Source: Planctomycetaceae bacterium (GTDB lineage Bacteria; Planctomycetota; Planctomycetia; Planctomycetales; Planctomycetaceae). From it: 64,000 bases of DNA. Location of the stretch: contig JAQWSQ010000202.1 of NCBI GenBank assembly GCA_029243145.1, positions 1 through 64,000 of the forward strand, read 5' to 3'. The notes below the pieces were generated by a model. It searched no databases, was not told the DNA's origin, and was given only the letters and a program-made list of their open reading frames with translations. The position numbers were made by a program, and so were the translations under genes. Each line of letters begins with the position of its first letter. The first letter of the stretch is position 1. Positions 52,040-64,000 of the stretch are shown here, piece by piece.

Positions 52040-53218
52040 ATGTCGGATATTCAATATCTCATCCCTGCCGAAGCACTCGAAGAACTCCGCCAGGGGACTC
52101 TATTTCGTTGGACGTTATCGCGAAAATCAGGCAACGCTGACAAATCTTTGCCGGACAAAATCGTCGGGCGATTGATTGAAAGCTCCGAAGGAGCCGTCTA
52201 TCAAACTGCCAGTTCTGATGGAAAACGGGAAGTTCACGAAAACCGATCTGCCCATGAAACGGTGGAGTATATCGAGTCTCTCTTCGGCCAACATTACCGA
52301 CAGATCAATTTGCACGGCACGAACGCTGATTTTGAACTCAAAGCCAAATCTGGCGGTCGTGTCAAACTCAAAACGATGAAACCGTCCATCAAGAACTATC
52401 AAGCGTCTCATGATCGCTCGAAAAATTATCTGCTCCCCGAAGACCGGCCGATTCCGTTCTTGGTTGAAGCAGGCCTGATCTCGAACGAAGGGAAACTCAA
52501 GTCTTCTGGTCGGGCTAAATTCCGACAGATCAATCGGTATTTGGAATTTCTGAAAGACATATTGCCCGAACTCCCCCAAGACAGGCCACTCCAAATCATC
52601 GACTTCGGCTGTGGCAAGAGCTACCTGACCTTTGCTCTACATCATTGGCTCACTCAAATCGAGAACCGCGAGGCACAGATCGTCGGGCTGGACCGGGAAT
52701 TGACGGTCATCGAACATTGTCGTGAAGTCGTCCACAAACTCTCTCTGGAAGATCTCTCTTTCGAACAAGGTGAGATTGCCGGCTATTCTCCTACGGCACC
52801 GGTTGACTTGGTGATTTCTTTACATGCTTGCGATACCGCCACCGATGATGCCCTCATTCAAGCGGTCGAATGGAATGCGAAAGTGATTCTTGCCGTCCCC
52901 TGTTGCCAGCATGAGTTATTCCCTCAGTTAAAGCATGAATCGCTGCAACCGTTGCTCACTCACGGGATTCTTAAAGAACGTTTCGCGGCCATGGCGACTG
53001 ATTCGTTGCGAGCGCTTGCTTTGGAAGCCTGCGGCTATCGTACTCAGTTGGTCGAATTTATTGACATGGAACACACACCCAAGAATGTCATGCTGAGAGC
53101 GGTGAAGTCAGAGAACACGAACACTCCTGCCGCGAATGAATTTGAAGCGTTTCGGAAGTCATTGGGCGAACCGATTCTGCAAATCCAGAAATTGTGTCTA
53201 TCATCTTCTCAAGACTGA
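52040..53218 (+). CDS. SAM-dependent methyltransferase
   Basis: A 392-residue protein with a class I methyltransferase domain of the PF13679-like type: motif I QIIDFGCGKSYLTFALHHWL, then IVGLDRELTVIEHC, VDLVISLHACDTATDDALIQ and AVPCCQHELFPQ. The last two blocks are typical of this group and of METTL25-like proteins. The N-terminal 180 residues are a separate domain with no clear match. The acceptor is unknown. ATG 52040 is the most family-like; an in-frame ATG at 51995 is possible. Its 3' end overlaps that of the convergent decaheme gene by 18 nt. Confidence 0.85.
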   Translation: MSDIQYLIPAEALEELRQGTLFRWTLSRKSGNADKSLPDKIVGRLIESSEGAVYQTASSDGKREVHENRSAHETVEYIESLFGQHYRQINLHGTNADFELKAKSGGRVKLKTMKPSIKNYQASHDRSKNYLLPEDRPIPFLVEAGLISNEGKLKSSGRAKFRQINRYLEFLKDILPELPQDRPLQIIDFGCGKSYLTFALHHWLTQIENREAQIVGLDRELTVIEHCREVVHKLSLEDLSFEQGEIAGYSPTAPVDLVISLHACDTATDDALIQAVEWNAKVILAVPCCQHELFPQLKHESLQPLLTHGILKERFAAMATDSLRALALEACGYRTQLVEFIDMEHTPKNVMLRAVKSENTNTPAANEFEAFRKSLGEPILQIQKLCLSSSQD

Positions 53219-55288
53219 AGATCCATGGATATGATAATTGTGACACTGAAGACAATTATCACCGGCCATTTTCAGTTGATGACATTGAACGCAATCGCGT
53301 CTTTGGATGGGAAGGTAACCTGTTGAGTTCGCGTGATGAAAGTCCGTAACGGGCATGCCATCAGGTAAAATAAATGCGGAACGACTCAAGAACGCTTTCT
53401 CCGGCTGGTGGCACTTCAAACAGACTTCCTCTTCAACGGCTTGCGAAAGAATAGAAGTGGAACGATCTTGCATCAGAGTGAGATGAGGACGATGGACGAA
53501 TTCCGAAAACTGACGCCGGAATTGATCTGCGGGCAATGCTCCCCAGTTGATTTTGAGGGATCCATCTAACAATCGATCGACTGTATGACATTTGGTACAA
53601 CGCCCGGTCGCTTCAGGAGAAACGGCGGTCCGAAAAAAGTCATCAAAACGATTGTGATCGGGAGATTCGGTCTCTTCGTAATGTGAACTCGCTTGATTCG
53701 CCATTAAATCCAGCCAGGATTTAGAAAGAGGGTCGGCGTGTTGTTGAGGCCGATAGACTACGGTCGATTGATCACTCAACATCGTCCAAGAACCGATGGT
53801 CACTTCACGATCATTCATGGAGTTCTCAGAATTTTTTGCCTTCATATTCTTGTTGTTTTTGGAAAGCATCTCAAAAAATCGAGATTGAACCAAAGCTTCG
53901 GTTAAGGATGTCACCAGTCTGTTTGCTTTCGGGCCTCGTGTGATTCGACTCAATCGGTGAGCCACTCCTTGCGCACCTTGCTGCTTCAACTCAATCAGTA
54001 AGCTGCGAGTCGCCTCTTTAATCAAAGCGACATTTTGGGCCTGTGACTCATCACCAGATGTTTCTGATCTTTGGAGCGAATCAATGGCGTCGGCGATTTC
54101 CTCATCGGCACGCAACATCAACTCCATAAACGGAGGTAATTCCAGAGACTTCGCAGAGGGAGTTTCTAAAATGGGTTGAGACTTCAGAAACTCGAACTGA
54201 TCCAACCGTAGTGCCGTCGGCATCTGGAAGTCGAGGATTTGTGATTCGTGGCACGACGAGCACATCGCTTCAAATCCTGCCAGTTGATAGGACGCTCCGT
54301 CGGAAGAAAGCAGATGACACTCGTTACAGCTTTGCTTCGGGATGCCGCTGGGCATTAAGAAGGGATAGTTATTGTAGTGCTGTCCGAAATGACTGCTGTG
54401 ATCAAAGCGAATCCGTACTCGTAATGTCTCGAATTCAGGATGTCCATCGCTGAAACTGTGGAAGGTATTTTCGTGACAACTTTGACATTGCTTATTTGTC
54501 AGGTGTGTTAAATCAAAGTCGGCCCCCTGGTGTTCTTGGTGACAGGTGGCACAACTCAGTTTTTCTGCATTGGAAACTCGATCTCCAATCAGAGCGCGAG
54601 CCCAGAGCTGATCAGAGGTGAGTTGAGCCTTTTCTGGATCTCGTGTTTTGAATTTTGTTAACTGAACCGGGTCGGCATTGTGCGCGTTCATCGCATGTTC
54701 GCCAAAATCTCGATGACAGTTTAAGCAAAGTTCACTTTGATGTTTGTTATCGTGCGAATCCCACACTTCTCCGATCATGGAAACTGGTGAAAAATGGATT
54801 GACGAATGACACGCTTGGCACCCTTCCTGAATCGCGGAATGTGGTGAAGAGAGTGGTCCTGGAGAAATGATTGCCGTCGTCTCGAAGAAAGTCGTTGAAG
54901 CAGTCTCTGAACTGCCCCCTAAGATGAGCAGGCAAAAGCCCAGCGAAGCGGCGAAAACCAGTCCCGTGACCATCTTTCGGCGGCTTCTCAAGCTGCGAGC
55001 AGGTTGGCAAGTCGCTTGCCTATGGGGACATATAGCCTTTTCTTCGGGGGAATCCGCATCAGGTATTGGGCCTTCGTGGCATTGCCCTCCCCAAGCATTA
55101 GGACGTGTGCAATGCCACCGATTTCCATCGAACTGAGGTTGGCAAATATTTTCTGCCAGACAACTCCCTTTTGTACTGGGGCCGATTGAACAAGGGCCAC
55201 CATCAGCCAGATGACCGCATACCCAATCCTGTTGTGGGAGCTGATAATTTTTGGCGTCGAACCCAGAGGGAGAGTCTGAATTGCTCAT
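53201..55288 (-). CDS. Membrane-anchored decaheme cytochrome c with cytoplasmic Cys repeat
   Basis: A 695-residue protein with three parts. Residues 22-95 hold a duplicated Cys motif: WVCG...GGPCSIGP...GSC...IC (Cys 24, 33, 43, 49) and WHCTR...GGQCHEGP...IC...TC (Cys 60, 70, 87, 94). A basic RSLRSRRK stretch then precedes one helix (about 106-125). By the positive-inside rule the Cys repeat is cytoplasmic and the rest periplasmic. The rest contains ten CXXCH haem sites (CQACH, CLNCH, CATCH, CQSCH, CNECH, CSSCH, CTKCH, CLKCH, CVQCH, CLQCH), the first six and the last four separated by a helical spacer. ATG 55288 overlaps the cytochrome b stop (ATGA) and follows GGGAGGGG. It is the last gene of the redox operon. 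Confidence 0.88.
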   Translation of the reverse strand: MSNSDSPSGFDAKNYQLPQQDWVCGHLADGGPCSIGPSTKGSCLAENICQPQFDGNRWHCTRPNAWGGQCHEGPIPDADSPEEKAICPHRQATCQPARSLRSRRKMVTGLVFAASLGFCLLILGGSSETASTTFFETTAIISPGPLSSPHSAIQEGCQACHSSIHFSPVSMIGEVWDSHDNKHQSELCLNCHRDFGEHAMNAHNADPVQLTKFKTRDPEKAQLTSDQLWARALIGDRVSNAEKLSCATCHQEHQGADFDLTHLTNKQCQSCHENTFHSFSDGHPEFETLRVRIRFDHSSHFGQHYNNYPFLMPSGIPKQSCNECHLLSSDGASYQLAGFEAMCSSCHESQILDFQMPTALRLDQFEFLKSQPILETPSAKSLELPPFMELMLRADEEIADAIDSLQRSETSGDESQAQNVALIKEATRSLLIELKQQGAQGVAHRLSRITRGPKANRLVTSLTEALVQSRFFEMLSKNNKNMKAKNSENSMNDREVTIGSWTMLSDQSTVVYRPQQHADPLSKSWLDLMANQASSHYEETESPDHNRFDDFFRTAVSPEATGRCTKCHTVDRLLDGSLKINWGALPADQFRRQFSEFVHRPHLTLMQDRSTSILSQAVEEEVCLKCHQPEKAFLSRSAFILPDGMPVTDFHHANSTGYLPIQRRDCVQCHQLKMAGDNCLQCHNYHIHGSSVLRR

Positions 55289-56130
55289 AGCGCCCCTCCC
55301 GACCACGCTTGGACAAGAACCACATGCAACGCGGTGAATGTGAGTAAAGAATAAGTGGCCGGGATATGAATGAACAACCAAAATTTCAAAGCGGATTGCA
55401 GAGTCTCTTGGGTATCGAGTTGGTGCTTTCGATGCAATTGGATCTCAACATTCGCCAACGCTTTCAGTTCTTCCTCATCAAACAATCGTTTCGCATCAGA
55501 CAATCGTTTCGCATCAGACAACTTTTTCTGTAGATGCCTCCAATACCGACTATGCCCGTAAACGAGATGCGACCATCGGTCCGGCTTCCGCATAATAAAC
55601 GGATAAAGCTCGTTGCGATAAAACATGGGAAGTTCCGAACCGTGGATCTCCTGCGCACATTCAAGAATCGAATGTTCAACCTCGGTTTGTATTTTTTTTC
55701 GGATGACGGGTATCTGCTCGAAAATGACTTCATCACCGAGTTCTATAAGCCGCTTGGGAAACGTCCGACTCATGTATAATCCCACAAGTCCGCTCCCGAA
55801 AACCAGCAGATAAACCGATGCCAACAATAATTCCAAGAAACCGTTTGGCAATGAATAATCAACATGAATCAGAAACAAAACGAATGACAACAAACCCGCA
55901 TAAATATGGGATTGCAACCACAGCGCCGAAGTTCCCAGTGGAAGGAAAGGGAACGCCTTGCGGAGATTATAGGCTGCGAGAAACACGATCGTGACCAAGA
56001 GAACCCAGCCTGTCAGAAAGTGCGTTTCAACCAACGTATGGCTGACAATCCAAGACCCACCGATCAGCAGGAGAGCGACCAGGAGGGTCATAATAATATT
56101 GATTGTTCGGCGGCGGGTGAAAGCTCTCAT
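55285..56130 (-). CDS. Diheme-type b cytochrome membrane protein
   Basis: A 281-residue membrane protein with about five helices (12-30, 38-56, 72-90, 98-120, 250-275). Two helices each carry a His pair spaced H-x13-H: H75/H89 (HIYAGLLSFVLFLIH) and H255/H269 (HIPATYSLLTFTALH). This is the spacing that binds two stacked b haems in ferric reductase and cytochrome b561-like proteins, so two haems across the membrane are likely. A soluble loop (about 125-245) holds a tandem duplication SDAKRL-SDAKRL encoded by an exact 18-bp repeat (55482-55517). It overlaps the upstream ferredoxin gene (ATGA) and the downstream decaheme gene, so the three are translationally coupled. Confidence 0.83.
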   Translation of the reverse strand: MRAFTRRRTINIIMTLLVALLLIGGSWIVSHTLVETHFLTGWVLLVTIVFLAAYNLRKAFPFLPLGTSALWLQSHIYAGLLSFVLFLIHVDYSLPNGFLELLLASVYLLVFGSGLVGLYMSRTFPKRLIELGDEVIFEQIPVIRKKIQTEVEHSILECAQEIHGSELPMFYRNELYPFIMRKPDRWSHLVYGHSRYWRHLQKKLSDAKRLSDAKRLFDEEELKALANVEIQLHRKHQLDTQETLQSALKFWLFIHIPATYSLLTFTALHVVLVQAWSGGAL

Positions 56131-57911
56131 CGATTAAACCACTCTGCTGCTGTCTCCGAAGTTCCAAGATTCAATCGGACTAATGCATCGTGAGGACACG
56201 CTTGTTGACATGCTGGTCCGGTGATCTGTTCCGCACAAAGGTCACACTTGGTGGCTTTGGTAATAGGTGTGAGCGAAAGGGGTGCCGACACATCAGATTC
56301 TGACGCCGTCGGAAAGATGAGATCTCCCTGTTCATCACGGATATGTACCATGCGGATGGCATCGTAGGGGCAATTGTTTGCACATGCACTGCATCCGATA
56401 CAGGTTGTGTCGTTAATGACCACTTCCCCACCGTGCAGATTCCGATGAATGGCCCCCGTGGGGCATTGAATCATACAAACGGGGTCTGCACAGTGCATGC
56501 AGGCATTCGCAACCATGTATTTGTCATAGATTGGTCCATGCCTCAAAAAACGTGGATTATTATCGTGAGTTGTCGCACAAGCTTTGACGCAGTCATCACA
56601 CCGCGTACAACGATCGAGATCGATCACCATGGTCGCCGTGCCATTGACGAATCGACGTTCGACAAGAAACTCGAGCAAACCGGAATCGATTTGTCCGATT
56701 TCATCATCTGGTTTTGAAGCCAGATGATCTGGCAACGTCGAAAGGGATTGGTCTCTTACCATTAACTCATTCAAGACCGCTTGTTCAAAATTTTGAATGG
56801 GAATAAAGATCACGTTGACATAACCAACCGCACGTAACGAATACTTCAAGTCGGCATCTTGACCTGTCTTCCAGCCTTCAATCATCTCATTCACTCCAAA
56901 AGCCTGTCCCGGAGTCAGATAGCTGACCGTGCGATGCTTGTGACCGGCTTGATGAGAAACTCGCGCGACACCGCTGCGTATCAGATAGACCCCTTCCAGG
57001 TACTCGCCTTCTTTGGCAATGAGAGGTTCATGCACTAAGTTAGATGCGGTCCCCGATTCCACAAGTTCCGTAAATCGTTCGACTTTGTCATAAGAACCAT
57101 AGGAACGAAACTCGGCATCATCGAGGACGTTCTGAAAGAGAGAATTACGTCGCTCAATTTCTTCCGGCTCCCGATCCTCGTTTGGCAGCAAGTGTTCAAA
57201 ATAGGGTGAAGCTTGCAAAAAACGCTGTAAACCGTACATGCGAAATCGTGATTCGATTTGCAATTTTAACCAGGGCGCTTTGGACATCATATCTCGAATT
57301 CCTTGCCAGCGGATTTCGAGTAATTCGCAGTCCCCAGCCGCAATTACGGTTGCCGTCCGTTCGATCCGTCCCAATGCTGATTGCTCACCAAAAAAATCAA
57401 CCGCGTTGATGGTTGCTGTTTTTTCGAGATCCAAAGCGATGGAGAAATCTTGCAGATAAACTCGTGTCCCCTGCTCGGTTGAACGGGATGAGGGAGACTC
57501 TGAGGAGTATTTTTCAAGATTACGAGATTCGACCTGACGATGACCGTTCCAAACTTGCCTGATAATATCGAGGAAGCTTTTCTGACGGACATTGGATCGG
57601 CCCAGAATTTCTGCCGGCAACGAATCATCCCCATGTTGCGCGACGACGTTGACACTGCCAGAAAGTAGAAAGAAAGCCGAGTTCCCCCACTCCCCTTTTC
57701 TGATAATGATTTCGCCTTCTTGACATTTCAAAAGGCTTGCATCATTTTTCAAAATCCCAGCGAGTGAAATGCGTTGCCCAAATTGATCAGGGTCAATCAT
57801 GCCCTCAGAAAATAAGGACATCTGCAAGACATGCTCGACATCTTCATCGGTCATCGATTCCGAAAAAGGAACCGACCAGCGTTCCGGCCGCTTGATTTGA
57901 ACATTGCTCAT
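56127..57911 (-). CDS. Double cyclic-nucleotide-binding, four-[4Fe-4S] ferredoxin protein
   Basis: A 594-residue soluble protein. A first cNMP-binding domain spans about 55-215; it has an insertion at about 95-155 and a well-formed phosphate cassette FFGEQSALGRIERTATV with the binding Arg. A second spans about 285-385 with cassette AFGVNEMIEGWKTG, where the conserved Glu/Arg pattern is degenerate. The C-terminus (about 430-580) is a DmsB/NrfC-like ferredoxin with 16 Cys in four clusters: 435-445, 471-483, 504-514 and 556-572. No signal peptide or DNA-binding helix-turn-helix is present, so it is a cytoplasmic electron carrier, not a CRP-type regulator. Its gene overlaps the cytochrome b gene. 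The fusion suggests electron transfer under cAMP or c-di-GMP-type control; which ligand is unknown. Confidence 0.87.
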   Translation of the reverse strand: MSNVQIKRPERWSVPFSESMTDEDVEHVLQMSLFSEGMIDPDQFGQRISLAGILKNDASLLKCQEGEIIIRKGEWGNSAFFLLSGSVNVVAQHGDDSLPAEILGRSNVRQKSFLDIIRQVWNGHRQVESRNLEKYSSESPSSRSTEQGTRVYLQDFSIALDLEKTATINAVDFFGEQSALGRIERTATVIAAGDCELLEIRWQGIRDMMSKAPWLKLQIESRFRMYGLQRFLQASPYFEHLLPNEDREPEEIERRNSLFQNVLDDAEFRSYGSYDKVERFTELVESGTASNLVHEPLIAKEGEYLEGVYLIRSGVARVSHQAGHKHRTVSYLTPGQAFGVNEMIEGWKTGQDADLKYSLRAVGYVNVIFIPIQNFEQAVLNELMVRDQSLSTLPDHLASKPDDEIGQIDSGLLEFLVERRFVNGTATMVIDLDRCTRCDDCVKACATTHDNNPRFLRHGPIYDKYMVANACMHCADPVCMIQCPTGAIHRNLHGGEVVINDTTCIGCSACANNCPYDAIRMVHIRDEQGDLIFPTASESDVSAPLSLTPITKATKCDLCAEQITGPACQQACPHDALVRLNLGTSETAAEWFNR

Positions 57912-57947
57912 CCCGCGTGTGTTCCTTTTCTGGCTGAGCTGTTCAAA

Positions 57948-59141
57948 TTAGGGTTGCAGCGGTTTACTGGGAGCATCGTCGAGTTCTTCAAGAACGACAT
58001 CTAATGCAGCCAGACGTTTTCCATCACCGAATTCTTTGAGAAATCCATCAGCAATTTTGGCAATCTCGCTTGCCGTCTCTCGGGCGGCTGCACGGGTTTG
58101 TTCTTCGAGATCGTCGAAGTCTTCAAACAGTTCAATGACTTTCAACAACGACTCGACAGCATCTTCTTCCAACGCTTTGATTTCGTCATCTTCAGGATCG
58201 AGTAAGAGTTCGACATAATAATCAATTTCATCAGCCCCCTCCTCAAACGCATCGATCAACTTACCCGCATAGCGTTCTTCGAGAGACTCATCGCTCGGAA
58301 AGTCTACCAAATAACGCAGTGCCACTTCAATTTTGGCCAGTTGTCCCAGCACCAAATAGACACGCTGCCGCTCCAGAGACGACAGCCCTCGTCGAAGAGT
58401 GTCAAGAGTGGGGGCATCGGCATTGGCTCTTTGATTCAAATGAAAGTTGTGCTGAATATCACTGTTCAAATAGGGAATCAAACTGAATTTCTCATGAATC
58501 ACAGGATGGCCGACTTCATCGCTCACCAGTGTGGCATCACCAATCATGTGACATCGAAAACAATTTTTGGCGACTTCGTATTGATGACTGGGACGTATCA
58601 TCCCGGCTTGATCGCAGTAATCGATCCGTTCTCGATAATGTTTTGGTGTCTCTTGTGCCAGCGTGGTGACATTGGGACCGTACACGGCATGCCGATTTAA
58701 CCAACCAGAGTCGCCTCCGGCTGCACCATGACACGACTCGCAAGAAGTCCCGCTTTCCACCGAGAGTCGTCCAAAATTCTTCTCATCGGGAGCAGAGTGA
58801 CACGAGTAACAGCGATCAAGAGTCCCTCCTTGATCGAGATACTTTTTCGCTACACTCACGTCGCTGATTTCGTACCGGTTGATCGGGTTTTTGTAATGCT
58901 CGGTTCCCAGCCAAGCCACGTATTCCGAACGATGACAATCGAGACACGCGCGAGCCCCCATAAAATGAGTGCGGTCTGGATGAATGGGCACAGGAATTTT
59001 GGCATTTACGGGAAGAGTGGTCGCTTGAGGAATAGCGTTCTCTTCACCCGGAAGCCACGCGACCAAAAAGGAGAAAGTGACCGCGCAACCGAGAAGCCAG
59101 TTGACGGTATGACTTCGAAGAGGCCTCCACTTTTTGAGCAT
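57948..59141 (-). CDS. Tetraheme cytochrome c554-like protein (second of pair)
   Basis: A 397-residue secreted protein. ATG 59141 opens a signal/anchor (WLLGCAVTFSFLVAWL). Four CXXCH sites: CLDCH 66-70, CYSCH 111-115, CESCH 134-138, CFRCH 194-198, in the arrangement of tetraheme cytochrome c-554. The C-terminal 180 residues are helical and acidic with no haem site and end in EELDDAPSKPLQP. The whole protein is a paralogue of the one encoded just upstream (59193-60350), including GAAGGDSGW, the AKNC haem block and the C-terminal tail. It follows that gene by 51 nt. Confidence 0.88.
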   Translation of the reverse strand: MLKKWRPLRSHTVNWLLGCAVTFSFLVAWLPGEENAIPQATTLPVNAKIPVPIHPDRTHFMGARACLDCHRSEYVAWLGTEHYKNPINRYEISDVSVAKKYLDQGGTLDRCYSCHSAPDEKNFGRLSVESGTSCESCHGAAGGDSGWLNRHAVYGPNVTTLAQETPKHYRERIDYCDQAGMIRPSHQYEVAKNCFRCHMIGDATLVSDEVGHPVIHEKFSLIPYLNSDIQHNFHLNQRANADAPTLDTLRRGLSSLERQRVYLVLGQLAKIEVALRYLVDFPSDESLEERYAGKLIDAFEEGADEIDYYVELLLDPEDDEIKALEEDAVESLLKVIELFEDFDDLEEQTRAAARETASEIAKIADGFLKEFGDGKRLAALDVVLEELDDAPSKPLQP

Positions 59142-59192
59142 AACTTTAATTCCTGAATCTCTGATTCCTGCACTAGGGTGACATGCCGGCAT

Positions 59193-60350
59193 TTAAGGCA
59201 AATACGGCTTCCCGACCGGCTTATCAAGTTCCTCGATTAATGGATCGAGCCCACCGAGATCTGCTTCGCCTGCTGACTTCAGGAACGCTTGAGCAATTTC
59301 AGCGAGCTGATCGGCGGCATCGATTGCGGCGGCCTGATCTTCAAATTTGCGACCGAGTTCGATCTCTTTGACCGCATCAACGGCAGCTTTGACATGTTCA
59401 TTGTCAATTGCCTTCCCAATTTCTTCATCGAGATATTCATAGACATCTTCCGCTCGACCGGCCCAACCACGACGGCCCGCGTAGCTCTCACCGAGATTTT
59501 CTTCGCTGATTAAACCCAGATTTCGCAGCAAGGTTTCTAATTCGACCATTCTGCTCACAACCAACAAAACCCGTTTACGTTGCTCCGTCGTAATACCGTC
59601 ACGCGCTTTCAATAAGGAAGGTGACTCAGCATTCACCGTTTGATCGACTTGGAAGTTATGTCGAACTTCACCTTGCATCCAAGGAATAAGATCAAAATCG
59701 CTATGACCCGGTTTGTGGCCAGCGGCCAGCAACTTCTCATCGGCGACCACATGACATGAATAGCAATTTTTCGCTAAAGCATAAACATTGCTGGCTCGGA
59801 TCATGCCGCTCGCATCACATGCCGCGAGCCGTTCTTTTCGATGTGCTTCCGTTTCGTCACCCCGTTTGACGCCCTCACCCCCATAATTGGAATGAAGCTT
59901 GAACCAACCCTCTGACCCACCGGCTGCAGAGTGACATGATTCGCACGAAACGCCCACCTGTGGGGAATCAAATTTCGCAGTCGGGGCGTGTGGAGTGGAA
60001 TGGCATTTTAGACAAGCGTCGGTATTGCCGAACGCGGCGGAAATTTTCTGCCCGGACGGCGACCCAATCCTCGCGAAGTTTTTAGAATGAACGGTTGCTG
60101 TCCAAGTTGCATGCTCGGCTTTGTGGCACTCTTTGCAGGAGGCCGCACCGACGATGTGTTCGGGTGAGTTGAAAACGGCCATTGTAGATGTGTGGTAAGT
60201 AGCCACCGAATCATTCTTGCTCGCATCGGAAGAAGCTGCCTGTTCGGGATTACCGGAAAACGCTGACGAGAGACCTGTCCCGATCAACGCCAGTAAACCC
60301 GCAAGCAGCAGACAATTATTTTTTGCGAGACGATTTTGCGAAAACGTCAT
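59193..60350 (-). CDS. Tetraheme cytochrome c554-like protein (first of pair)
   Basis: A 385-residue secreted tetraheme cytochrome. ATG 60350 follows GGAG and starts a signal peptide (NNCLLLAGLLALIGTGLSSA). Haem sites: CKECH 72-76, CLKCH 113-117, CESCH 136-140, CYSCH 196-200, with SAAGGSEGW and AKNCYSCH matching the paralogue at 57948. The C-terminal half is helical and ends in IEELDKPVGKPYLP. It follows the flavin/iron-sulfur reductase gene by 36 nt. Likely a periplasmic electron carrier. Confidence 0.89.
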   Translation of the reverse strand: MTFSQNRLAKNNCLLLAGLLALIGTGLSSAFSGNPEQAASSDASKNDSVATYHTSTMAVFNSPEHIVGAASCKECHKAEHATWTATVHSKNFARIGSPSGQKISAAFGNTDACLKCHSTPHAPTAKFDSPQVGVSCESCHSAAGGSEGWFKLHSNYGGEGVKRGDETEAHRKERLAACDASGMIRASNVYALAKNCYSCHVVADEKLLAAGHKPGHSDFDLIPWMQGEVRHNFQVDQTVNAESPSLLKARDGITTEQRKRVLLVVSRMVELETLLRNLGLISEENLGESYAGRRGWAGRAEDVYEYLDEEIGKAIDNEHVKAAVDAVKEIELGRKFEDQAAAIDAADQLAEIAQAFLKSAGEADLGGLDPLIEELDKPVGKPYLP

Positions 60351-60386
60351 AATCCACTCCCTCAATATTCTCAAATGATAAATTCT

Positions 60387-61661
60387 TCAGGCCTCAATCA
60401 CCAAGTTTGTTTTCGGACAGGCAATACATGCCAAACACGACCCCCTGCCGACTTCCACACTTGGCTCAACAGTGTATTCGATTTCCCCTTGCTTCACTGC
60501 AACTTCACACGAACCGCAACTTCCGGCACGACAACCGGAGTCGATTTCAATCCCTTGATCGAGAGCAAAATCGAGTAAGCTTGACTGATTGTGGTCCCAG
60601 GTCACACAAGTTTCTGATCGACTAAATTGTACCGTAATTTCGGGCTTGTTCTCACTGTCAGCCTGACTTTTTTGAGGAGTTGATGACTTCTTCGCACGAT
60701 TGACTGTCGCAGGTCCAAACGCTTCGGTATGGATTTTCTCCTTTGGTACTCCCCAGTCTTTGAGGGCTGGGACTAATGTTTCCATCATGGGAGGAGGCCC
60801 ACAAATATAAAAGTCATAATTGCAGACTTTGACCGTTTCGCTGATGACTGCCAGATCCACATGCCCTTTATGATGAAAAATTTTCTCACTCTCGTCGCAA
60901 CCTTCAGGACAGCTATAACAAACCATGAGATGAAAATGATCGTATTGCTCGTCCAATTGTTGGAGATGCTCCCGCATCGGATGTTCTCGGCCACAACGGA
61001 CTCCGAGAAAAAACCAGACATCTCTTTGGATGTCAGTTTCCAAGATCGTGTTCGCCATACTCAACACCGGAGTGACACCGACCCCACCCCCAATCAGCAC
61101 AACGGGGCTTCTCTCTGTAGGCTCCAGGAAAAAATCACCACGCGGAGACTGCACATCCAGGATATCTCCCTCGATCACATGATCGTGAAAATAGTTGGAA
61201 ACGCGACCTTCGGGAGCATCAACACCAGGAGGAGGCGGAACTCGCTTAACCGTCACACGGTAATAACCGGGTCGAGGAGCCTCTGAGAGCGAATAGCACC
61301 GGACGACCGATTTTGATTTCTTCGTGTTCAAGTCCGGTAATTGAAATCGAAAGGTCAAAAACTGGCCCGGACGATACTTGGGTAACGGTTTCCCATCATG
61401 GGGCACCAGATAGAACGAGCAAATATTATCCGCTTCGAGAACTTTACGGTCCACTCGAAACTTCCGGTATCCGTTCCAGTGTGTCTGCTGTGTCTCTCTC
61501 TGTTTTCTCAACGCACGAATCGAGGCGATTCGCTCATCCAGAAGTTCGAGCGATTTGCGACGTTGATTCGCTGAGTGTCGTTGCGTACGGATCACGTCCA
61601 ACAGCGATAAAACCAAACGTAATCCGATCAACGAAATCAGAATGCTGCCGAGGATTTGCAT
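60387..61661 (-). CDS. Membrane-anchored FAD/NAD oxidoreductase with [2Fe-2S] domain
   Basis: A 424-residue protein. ATG 61661 starts one membrane helix (MQILGSILISLIGLRLVLSL) followed by a basic segment. A ferredoxin-reductase module follows: FAD motif RCYSLSEAP (121-129), pyridine-nucleotide motifs GGGVGVTPVLSM (191-202) and CGPPPMM (287-293). A plant-type [2Fe-2S] domain ends the protein, with Cys 377, 382, 385 and 415 (C-x4-C-x2-C-x29-C). The order FAD-NAD-2Fe2S is that of HMP-like and dioxygenase reductases, not NqrF. It is the first gene of the redox operon and is the likely electron entry from NAD(P)H, on the cytoplasmic face. Confidence 0.9.
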   Translation of the reverse strand: MQILGSILISLIGLRLVLSLLDVIRTQRHSANQRRKSLELLDERIASIRALRKQRETQQTHWNGYRKFRVDRKVLEADNICSFYLVPHDGKPLPKYRPGQFLTFRFQLPDLNTKKSKSVVRCYSLSEAPRPGYYRVTVKRVPPPPGVDAPEGRVSNYFHDHVIEGDILDVQSPRGDFFLEPTERSPVVLIGGGVGVTPVLSMANTILETDIQRDVWFFLGVRCGREHPMREHLQQLDEQYDHFHLMVCYSCPEGCDESEKIFHHKGHVDLAVISETVKVCNYDFYICGPPPMMETLVPALKDWGVPKEKIHTEAFGPATVNRAKKSSTPQKSQADSENKPEITVQFSRSETCVTWDHNQSSLLDFALDQGIEIDSGCRAGSCGSCEVAVKQGEIEYTVEPSVEVGRGSCLACIACPKTNLVIEA

Positions 61662-62108
61662 TGGAAAAATGGAGTTCGAGGAAAATGAAGAACATCGCGC
61701 TGAGAACCAACTCACCAAGAAATAATTTTAGTTGGCAGGACAGGCAAAAGGAAGGAGCACTTAGCCAGATTACTCTCTGAAAAAGAAACCCTGAAACACG
61801 TAACTCATTTTCAGCCCATCGTTTGGGGCCTGACAAACTCTAAAAAACGGACCTTACACATCAGATTTTAGTGATCAATCAGTCCAGAATGTCGATTCAA
61901 GTGAAAGACGTGATCACTCACGAACAGAATCAATGCCGACTTGGTAAAATAGAGGAATTATCACGATTTCGCAGGACGTATTCTCGCAATTATTGATTTC
62001 GGGGAAATCTGCCCACAGAGCCTGCCGCCAGAACACCGATTTCAATCAATAAGGCTCGTGGAGACGGGTCTGCGCTGATTGTACATATTCCGTCAAGTTA
62101 GGGATGAG
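61662..62108. promoter_or_regulatory. Divergent regulatory region of the redox cluster
   Basis: About 450 nt between the minus-strand redox operon and the plus-strand multiheme cytochrome gene; it must hold both promoters. Two inverted repeats stand out: CGTGA-N4-TCACG at 61909-61922, which overlaps GTGATCAC, and GATTTC-GGG-GAAATC at 61995-62009. Either could be an operator; the first recalls a CRP/FNR half-site pair but with the wrong spacing (4 instead of 6). No gene is seen. Confidence 0.45.
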
Positions 62109-64000
62109 ATGACGGCTGCTAGACGCCTGGAAATTGTTTTGAATTCACACAGAATGGTGAAGACCATTGTTGTGCTGGTGATACTGCCCTTATGGCTTTG
62201 CCCCATTGATGTGATGGCTCAGGGAAAACAACCAGTCGCAACAGTCTCTATTAGCGTTACAGATTCCCACCAAGAAATTGTCGGCGACCGTGAAGTCGTC
62301 TTACAACAGGCCATCGATCAGGCTCACGCAGAGTGTTTTGAAGACAATTGCTTCCCATCGGCAAAACAATGTGCAACTTGTCACCCACAACATTATCGGG
62401 AATGGTCGGTTTCTCCACATTCCTATGCGCAGTTAAGCCCCGTCTTCAATGCGATGTCCAACAAACTCAATAAACTCAATTCGGGAACGCTGGGAGATTT
62501 CTGCATTCGGTGCCACACACCGACCGGGATGGCACTCAACGAACCCTTGAACACCAGCAACCTGAATCGTCATCCCACTTCCCGTGAAGGTGTTACTTGC
62601 ATCACTTGCCACCGAATCAATCAAGCTTGGGGAAAAGGTGCCGGACGGCAAGCGTTGGTTCCCGGTGATGTTCATCAAGCAGTCTACGGACCGATTGGCA
62701 GCAATGTTTTAAATCAGGTCTTGTCCAATCCTGACAAGTTCGGCGTTTTGAAAACCAAGAAAGCCGACGACGTTCGCGGACGAGATATTCACAAAGTGTC
62801 GCATCGCTTTTTTCAAATCACCACTTCGGGATTTTGCGGTTCGTGTCATGATGTCTTTGCACCCAACGGATTTCGGCTCGAAGATGCGTTTTCTGAATTC
62901 AAACAATCACCATCAGCTAGAATTCATGGACACAACTGCCAGGACTGTCATATGGGTGCGGTTCCCGGAGAGGCCAAAGGTTATACAGATGGTCCAGCGG
63001 CTGTTGTTGGAAACGTCAGCACTGCGTCTCGGAAACATACCAACCATATGATGATCGGCCCCGATTACCCGGTGATCCATCGAGGTTTGTTCCCCCACCA
63101 TCCCGAAGCAATTCGCGAAGAGGGTGCTGTCGATTTGATCGATCAAGCAACCAGCGGTGCCATCACAGAATCAGGACTCGCCACAATGCGAGAGTGGCTT
63201 TGTTTCGACGATGCTGCAGGCTGGGGAACGGAATCCTTCGAAAAAACCGTCACCGATAATTCATACTTCCCGCACCCTTGGGACAACAAACAGAAACGCT
63301 TAAAAGCTCGTCAAATCTTGAACGAGCAATACCAATTGCTGGCCGAAGCGACAATCGCCCGATTACAACTCTTGCGAGCCGGATATCACCTCGGACAAAT
63401 CGAATTTCATCGATCCGATTGTGAGCAGGTAGAGTTTGGTATCGATCTCCGTAATGGCACTCCAGGACATGGAGTTCCCACCGGTTTCGATGCCGAGCGA
63501 ATGGTGTTCCTCAGAGTTCATGTGTGGGATCCGACGGGTCGCATGGTGTTTCAATCGGGTGATCTCGATCCGAACGGTGACGTTCGAGACAGTCACTCCC
63601 TCTATGTTCACAACGGCGAAATCCCACTCGACCGCAATCTGGTCTCTCTACAATCGCGTTTTGTGACCAGAAACATTCGCGGTGGAGAGCGAGAGCAAAT
63701 CCTTAACGTGCCGTATTCGCTTGATCCTTTACCTTACACTCGACCCGCGACACGGGCCTTCACTGTTTTGGGGCGTCCCATCGGAGCTCGTAAACATAAA
63801 CAGAATATTGAAGTTGATGGCGGGATCGATGCTCGCTACGAACTCAAAGGTAAGCAGATCACCGGCGCGGGAACTTACACGGTTCGTGTGCAACTGATCG
63901 CCGGCATGGTTCCCGTAAATCTGGTTCACGAAATCTCCGATGTCGGTTTCGATTACGGCATGAGTGCCAAACAACTGGCCCGAGCCATTGTTGACGGGCA
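62109..64000 (+). CDS. Secreted multiheme cytochrome c (3' end outside window)
   Basis: An open frame running off the window end, at least 630 codons. ATG 62109 gives MTAARRLEIVLNSHRMVKTI and then a signal peptide helix (VVLVILPLWLCPIDVMAQ); ATG 62154 is an alternative. Five CXXCH haem sites lie in the first half: CATCH 88-92, CIRCH 132-136, CITCH 164-168, CGSCH 243-247, CQDCH 277-281. After about residue 400 the sequence has a beta-rich, haem-free domain (TPGHGVPTGFDAERM, GGIDARYELKGKQI). It is not cytochrome c554-like; closest in style to the multiheme family in respiratory and extracellular electron clusters. It is transcribed divergently from the redox operon and probably belongs to the same system. 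Confidence 0.85.
   Translation, partial: MTAARRLEIVLNSHRMVKTIVVLVILPLWLCPIDVMAQGKQPVATVSISVTDSHQEIVGDREVVLQQAIDQAHAECFEDNCFPSAKQCATCHPQHYREWSVSPHSYAQLSPVFNAMSNKLNKLNSGTLGDFCIRCHTPTGMALNEPLNTSNLNRHPTSREGVTCITCHRINQAWGKGAGRQALVPGDVHQAVYGPIGSNVLNQVLSNPDKFGVLKTKKADDVRGRDIHKVSHRFFQITTSGFCGSCHDVFAPNGFRLEDAFSEFKQSPSARIHGHNCQDCHMGAVPGEAKGYTDGPAAVVGNVSTASRKHTNHMMIGPDYPVIHRGLFPHHPEAIREEGAVDLIDQATSGAITESGLATMREWLCFDDAAGWGTESFEKTVTDNSYFPHPWDNKQKRLKARQILNEQYQLLAEATIARLQLLRAGYHLGQIEFHRSDCEQVEFGIDLRNGTPGHGVPTGFDAERMVFLRVHVWDPTGRMVFQSGDLDPNGDVRDSHSLYVHNGEIPLDRNLVSLQSRFVTRNIRGGEREQILNVPYSLDPLPYTRPATRAFTVLGRPIGARKHKQNIEVDGGIDARYELKGKQITGAGTYTVRVQLIAGMVPVNLVHEISDVGFDYGMSAKQLARAIVDG

Follow-up and report, generated by a model that had tools for sequence, protein, structure and literature searches.

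Positions 53201 to 64000 of the stretch analysed here hold an operon of redox genes and a divergently transcribed multiheme cytochrome gene, and they raise the question of whether these genes form a single electron conduit and, if so, from which donor to which acceptor it would run. The stretch (hereafter the window) comprises positions 1-64000 of an 80,706-base contig (JAQWSQ010000202.1) in a draft genome of 5.2 Mb, which its relatives identify as that of a planctomycete. The gene set is real, conserved, modular and more complete than was recognized in the original prediction, a note made from the letters of the window alone. In our reading, to which we give a probability of roughly 0.55, these genes encode a modular, cyclic-nucleotide-gated conduit that would draw electrons from NAD(P)H, deliver them to haems in the periplasm and probably pass them on to the cell surface. 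The features inside the window are as follows.

60387..61718 (61661 with the likely ATG start), minus strand: membrane-anchored FNR-type reductase (Pfam NAD_binding_1 and Fer2; transmembrane [TM] segment)
59193..60374, minus strand: exported tetraheme cytochrome of the C554 type (four CXXCH motifs)
57948..59192, minus strand: second exported tetraheme cytochrome of the C554 type (four CXXCH motifs)
56127..57911, minus strand: CNB-ferredoxin, with two cyclic-nucleotide-binding (CNB) domains and a 4x[4Fe-4S] domain with 16 invariant Cys (PF00027 and Fer4 families; alignment A1)
57339..57398, minus strand: phosphate-binding cassette of the first CNB domain (G175 E176 ... R185; invariant in 81/81 sequences)
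55285..56130, minus strand: diheme b cytochrome with five predicted TM helices (62-sequence alignment, AlphaFold model and H-x13-H positions)
53201..55288, minus strand: decaheme c3-type cytochrome with an N-terminal 8-Cys domain and one TM helix (ten CXXCH motifs)
55007..55219, minus strand: tandem 4-Cys domain of the decaheme protein, unrecognised and predicted to be cytoplasmic (eight Cys invariant in 69 sequences)
54917..54973, minus strand: single TM helix of the decaheme protein, residues 106-124
62079..64000 and on to contig position 64043, plus strand: divergent pentaheme cytochrome with a five-CXXCH domain and a C-terminal domain (likely export start at 62154)

All seven genes of the original prediction, with their strands, coordinates, and haem and Fe-S motifs, were recovered by open reading frame (ORF), motif and Pfam checks, although the reductase, the first tetraheme cytochrome and the divergent gene probably start at internal ATGs. 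The overlaps described for the last three genes of the operon are present, as both downstream junctions read ATGA (CNB-ferredoxin and b cytochrome genes, ...TCGATGAGAG...; b cytochrome and decaheme genes, ...GCTATGAGC...). The b cytochrome has exactly the two H-x13-H pairs noticed earlier (H75/H89 and H255/H269), and the divergent gene, credited with at least five haem sites, has five CXXCH motifs and crosses the window edge. The membrane anchor of the decaheme cytochrome was likewise correctly described, but the 8-Cys domain that precedes it had been overlooked. A promoter and terminator scan gave the same counts as shuffled sequences and was not used.

Conservation and exchange of modules

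The CNB-ferredoxin served as bait for the conservation analysis. A scan of GTDB genomes with its alignment A1 returned at least 539 relatives, and the best 80 loci were used for locus counts (identified by numbers beginning with L); loci were testable when they had enough sequence downstream (for the b cytochrome and decaheme genes) or upstream (for the reductase gene). The CNB-ferredoxin, diheme b cytochrome and decaheme genes, which we call the core, occur together in 70/70 testable loci, and the reductase gene is kept in 44/48. This search for co-occurrence, which the original prediction had called for, thus speaks against the possibility that the genes are rarely found together in other genomes.

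The carriers, many of which are metagenome bins, span at least eight phylum-level groups (the record titles name Planctomycetota, Verrucomicrobiota, Alphaproteobacteria, SAR324, Nitrospinota, Myxococcota, Zixibacteria, Latescibacterota and Poribacteria), and two of them are complete chromosomes (Candidatus Uabimicrobium amorphum, NZ_AP019860, and Planctomycetales bacterium ZRK34, CP050848). The motifs are not chance occurrences: in sets of 62-81 homologues, conservation extends to the haem ligands, to the four His of the b haems and to each of the 16 Fe-S Cys. The tree mixes phyla, and its long branches, together with binning errors, allow no firm claim of transfer between them. Among 294 sampled genomes of the phylum, about 28 (our own genome counted) have a strong relative of the CNB-ferredoxin (best E below 1e-67). 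The trait is patchy, since the sole other genome of the same genus in the sample (G257) is without one.

A second set comprised 27 planctomycete loci at greater distance, whose CNB-ferredoxins are 28-44% identical to the bait. In 21 of them, a b cytochrome and a multiheme c protein stand near the CNB-ferredoxin, but the ends of the system change. On the cytoplasmic side, a NuoE/NuoF-type NADH dehydrogenase adjoins the CNB-ferredoxin in nine loci (L122, L134-L137, L141, L143, L147 and L149), where the CNB-ferredoxin itself has a NuoG-like [2Fe-2S]/Nqo3 N-terminus (by Pfam in L135 and L136, and by phmmer in most others). One NADH-oxidising module has thus been replaced by an unrelated one, and in our view no other evidence speaks as strongly for NAD(P)H as the cytoplasmic partner. 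On the other side, the partner in L119, L133, L144 and L151 is a 9-10-haem LVIVD-repeat cytochrome of ~1260 aa (1256-1263 aa), with a probable related barrel beside it in L133, L144 and L151, and in L153 a pentaheme/barrel pair like that of our own cluster accompanies a core whose c proteins have 17 and 15 haems. Such variant cores, in which a 17-haem and a 15-haem c protein flank the b cytochrome and the CNB-ferredoxin, are also seen in L150, L154 and L156.

The inner-membrane core and its proposed electron path

The reductase has an N-terminal TM segment followed by a positively charged stretch, an FAD/NAD(P) module and a plant-type [2Fe-2S] domain, and its relatives are of the flavohaemoglobin, NqrF and BenC type. 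In the CNB-ferredoxin, the CNB domains resemble those of PKG and PKA and the Fe-S part resembles HycB3, HydN and DmsB. Across 81 sequences, the 16 Cys and residues G175, E176, R182 and R185 of the first CNB domain are invariant; this domain has the phosphate-binding G-E...R of a functional cassette in 81/81, and no such cassette was seen in the second CNB domain of the same sequences. The CNB-ferredoxin ORFs of L010 (genome G107) and L008 (G071) have an extra N-terminal stretch that looks FHA-like by eye, a further regulatory fusion.

The b cytochrome is encoded by a single-copy gene in this genome. H75, H89, H255 and H269 are invariant in 62 sequences, as expected of a diheme b cytochrome in general. 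Its AlphaFold model (mean predicted local distance difference test score [pLDDT] 93.9, predicted template-modelling score 0.86) places each pair on one long predicted helix (H75/H89 on 68-89 and H255/H269 on 219-276), with a helical insert at about 132-244. From the charge distribution, we read this insert as cytoplasmic and the C terminus as periplasmic. The protein of the window matches no Pfam family at cut-off, Ferric_reduct included; among its homologues, Ferric_reduct appears in 8/62 at E up to 1 (best 0.0015), below the membership cut-off. A profile search against PDB sequences gave no match, and Foldseek gave nothing at E<0.001. The VIA rows are helical bundles, with cytochrome b561 (4o6y) at Z 7.8 and 3.4 A over 140 residues, within noise for helical models; NOX and FRD structures are not among these rows, which excludes nothing. 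The gene (55285-56130) also holds a short in-frame repeat (RLSDAKRLSDAKRLF), and its product has 6 residues more than the 83%-identical relative in L084.

Such a b cytochrome might instead exchange electrons with the quinone pool, the Fe-S/CNB protein and the reductase being side inputs or regulators. Weak Pfam signals of the homologues to the diheme families DUF4405, Ni_hydr_CYTB and Ferric_reduct would suit this arrangement, but the CNB-ferredoxin adjoins the b cytochrome in 70/70 testable loci and most loci retain the NADH module or have another in its place, so we consider a quinone-linked system improbable.

In the conduit that we favour, electrons from NAD(P)H would enter at the membrane-anchored FAD/[2Fe-2S] reductase, and the CNB-ferredoxin would receive them in its 4x[4Fe-4S] domain. 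From there they would pass to a cytoplasmic b haem (putatively ligated by H75/H255), then to a periplasmic b haem (H89/H269) and on to the decaheme protein; the core proteins may form a complex. The predicted topology fits the path from cytoplasm to periplasm put forward in the original prediction.

The decaheme protein adds a domain of its own to this path. In the ~100 residues before its TM helix, Cys 24, 33, 43 and 49 and Cys 60, 70, 87 and 94 are invariant in 69/69 sequences and follow a tandem repeat pattern (W-x-C-G...G-x-x-C-x-x-G-P-x-x-x-G-x-C...C-x-P). This 8-Cys domain has no relative in Pfam or PDB and is apparently new. It is predicted to be cytoplasmic because an Arg-rich stretch precedes the TM helix. 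Our guess is that it holds two 4-Cys sites for Fe-S clusters or another metal, and on the cytoplasmic side these might serve in docking or as a relay. The haem part of the protein persists in the most distant cores found, but the 8-Cys domain does not in all of them.

Probable outer-membrane exit and proposed cyclic-nucleotide control

Two further genes lie on the same contig, beyond the window.

Contig 64066-65871, plus strand: predicted 18-strand outer-membrane barrel
Contig 65882-67762 (L006 4383-6263), minus strand: class III cyclase

The barrel protein belongs to no Pfam family. Its L084 homologue, 90% identical, is modelled as a barrel of ~18 strands (overall pLDDT 75, with most of the barrel above 80), and this model resembles OprD-family porins and also AlgE (Foldseek E 1e-10; VIA Z 28.4, 2.9 A, 328 residues). 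A resemblance to BBP7, considered at first, was dropped, as no Pfam family matched. MtrB-type barrels have 26 or more strands; with ~18 long strands in the model and OprD/AlgE-type porins as best matches, the barrel is not of this large type. Next to it, the divergent pentaheme cytochrome matches cytochrome c552 (5ze8) through its own 90%-identical L084 homologue, in the haem domain and weakly in the C-terminal domain (42 bits only); no open-access paper on the 5ze8 protein came to light. The locus thus encodes an outer-membrane barrel, by predicted fold, together with a multiheme c cytochrome, as porin-cytochrome clusters do. Of the 80 loci, 27 have the pentaheme gene, 26 the barrel gene and 25 both, frequently as part of a single gene run that includes the core (e.g. 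L042, L044, L055, L083, L117 and L126). This outer-membrane module is part of the system, beyond what the original prediction described. The tetraheme C554-type carriers would take electrons through the periplasm as far as the pentaheme cytochrome and the barrel, and the acceptor served by these would probably lie on the outer membrane or beyond it.

The same proteins could form a periplasmic respiratory reductase. Its substrate, admitted by the barrel as a porin, would be a small soluble molecule (an oxide of nitrogen or sulfur, for example), which the tetraheme and pentaheme cytochromes would reduce. The C554-type domains, the match to 5ze8 and the likeness of the barrel to substrate-specific OprD/AlgE porins are consistent with this, but in the distant branches the outer partners are large LVIVD-repeat cytochromes and barrels of another kind, as would fit a generic exit more readily than one enzyme, and we judge a soluble substrate to be quite unlikely.

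Two observations lead us to favour outward flow: the loci keep or exchange a module that oxidises NAD(P)H, and the outer-membrane module recurs. A conduit built from identical parts could run inward, from a periplasmic or extracellular donor through the c and b haems to the cytoplasm, where the membrane potential would help to reduce ferredoxin or NAD(P)+. The 4x[4Fe-4S] relay and the transmembrane diheme path could work against a redox gradient in this way, and CbcL/MtoC-like inner-membrane cytochromes have been proposed to be bidirectional (PMC6295460). However, the outer-membrane module recurs beside two unrelated kinds of NAD(P)H-oxidising module, and carbon-fixation genes were not noticed in the loci, which were not searched systematically for them; inward flow therefore seems unlikely to us. 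The genome also has a COX1-type oxidase, so the outward conduit would be an extra route and not the sole one.

A regulatory layer that the original prediction did not describe is probably also part of the system. Of the two class III cyclase genes in the genome, the one at contig 65882-67762 lies about 8-9 kb from the CNB-ferredoxin gene. In this cyclase, Pfam finds only the cyclase domain, and FHA-like and GAF-like N-terminal parts are seen by eye only. The other cyclase (C126:14840-15358) lies about 1.5 kb from another CNB gene (C126:16845). A cyclase is encoded within about 10 kb in 8/17 operon-bearing genomes, where 0.28 would be expected at random (Poisson p about 1e-9, which overstates independence because the eight genomes fall in about four lineages). 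Class III cyclases are seen in 24/80 loci, with an FHA-like build in planctomycetes and a CHASE2-like build in verrucomicrobia, both by eye. Together, the intact CNB cassette and the nearby cyclases support regulation by a cyclic nucleotide. We propose that this regulation acts through nucleotide binding to the first CNB domain, which would switch the Fe-S relay.

The intact cassette and the nearby cyclases would also suit a redox sensor, with the CNB-ferredoxin reading the cyclic nucleotide and the redox state to control other processes and not bulk electron flow. At least 23 c haems, two b haems and four Fe-S clusters are far too many for such a role, and there is no output domain, which makes a sensor very improbable.

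Several points weigh against an outward, gated conduit as proposed here. The direction of electron flow is not readable from sequence, and the few lineages behind the cyclase association lessen its force. For 6/27 distant loci, the stretch read shows no b cytochrome alongside the CNB-ferredoxin, which may have another role there. Some cores (e.g. L052 and L061) have no tetraheme genes or outer-membrane pair in view nearby, so that the exit may differ or lie elsewhere, and an 18-strand barrel may be too narrow for the pentaheme protein. A quinone site in the b cytochrome is also possible, because its model has no significant Foldseek match. More tentatively, and with the odds somewhat against so broad a statement, the loci may represent a family of CNB-ferredoxin/diheme b/8-Cys multiheme inner-membrane complexes for quinone-free, nucleotide-switched electron transfer from NAD(P)H to the cell exterior, with varied NADH and porin-cytochrome modules and with the 8-Cys domain as a new Fe-S or metal domain.

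Comparison with known systems

The original prediction knew of no complex with this gene set, and we found none in the open-access literature; subscription papers were beyond reach, and the novelty is accordingly provisional. Sequence comparison points to a new variant of envelope-spanning electron conduits. Several of its modules have familiar counterparts: flavohaemoglobin, NqrF and BenC, HycB3 and HydN, and PKA and PKG each match single modules, but the combination in one operon is not theirs. The operon also differs from the NrfD-based complexes (Qrc, ACIII, Dsr and Psr), as no operon protein matches an NrfD-type membrane subunit. A marine tunnel study, whose OFTM bins contributed some of our loci, treats NrfD complexes as well as porin-cytochrome genes and mentions neither ferredoxin nor a cyclic nucleotide (PMC10732223).

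On the outer side, MtrCAB and OmbB-OmaB-OmcB likewise link an outer-membrane barrel gene to multiheme c cytochromes as the probable electron exit. The present cluster differs from them in its ~18-strand OprD/AlgE-type barrel and pentaheme partner, and in its inner side, which is an NAD(P)H/Fe-S/diheme b module with no recognised quinol oxidase. Porin-multiheme clusters of freshwater Verrucomicrobia, the phylum of many of our loci, combine an octaheme cytochrome with a porin of at least 20 strands, and extracellular electron transfer has been proposed for them (PMC5615132, PMC6344600). The present cluster is not of this verrucomicrobial porin-multiheme cytochrome type (He 2017), as its cytochromes have 4, 4, 10 and 5 haems and its barrel ~18 strands. 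A 2026 karst study describes 'Group 1' porin-cytochrome clusters with a large decaheme gene of 4-5 kb, a ~20-strand porin and, in 7/11, a ferredoxin-NADP reductase (PMC13264449). These may overlap our LVIVD branch, in which a cytochrome of 1256-1263 aa and a barrel stand beside the core; the CNB-ferredoxin, diheme b and 8-Cys decaheme core goes unmentioned in the section of the study consulted, and our loci are set apart from Group 1 by description only.

On the inner side, CbcL/MtoC/MtrH, ImcH and CymA, proposed quinol oxidases or quinone reductases, are likewise inner-membrane entries to multiheme chains, with no cytoplasmic NAD(P)H/Fe-S/CNB partner described (PMC6295460). The known routes of extracellular electron transfer considered here start at the quinone pool. 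If our reading is correct, a conserved module with its own cyclic-nucleotide site would tap NAD(P)H through Fe-S clusters, which would provide an entry point of another kind, equipped with a fast switch. It would also represent a new mode of respiration for many poorly known bacteria, with carriers in phyla rarely considered electroactive (Planctomycetota, Verrucomicrobiota and others).

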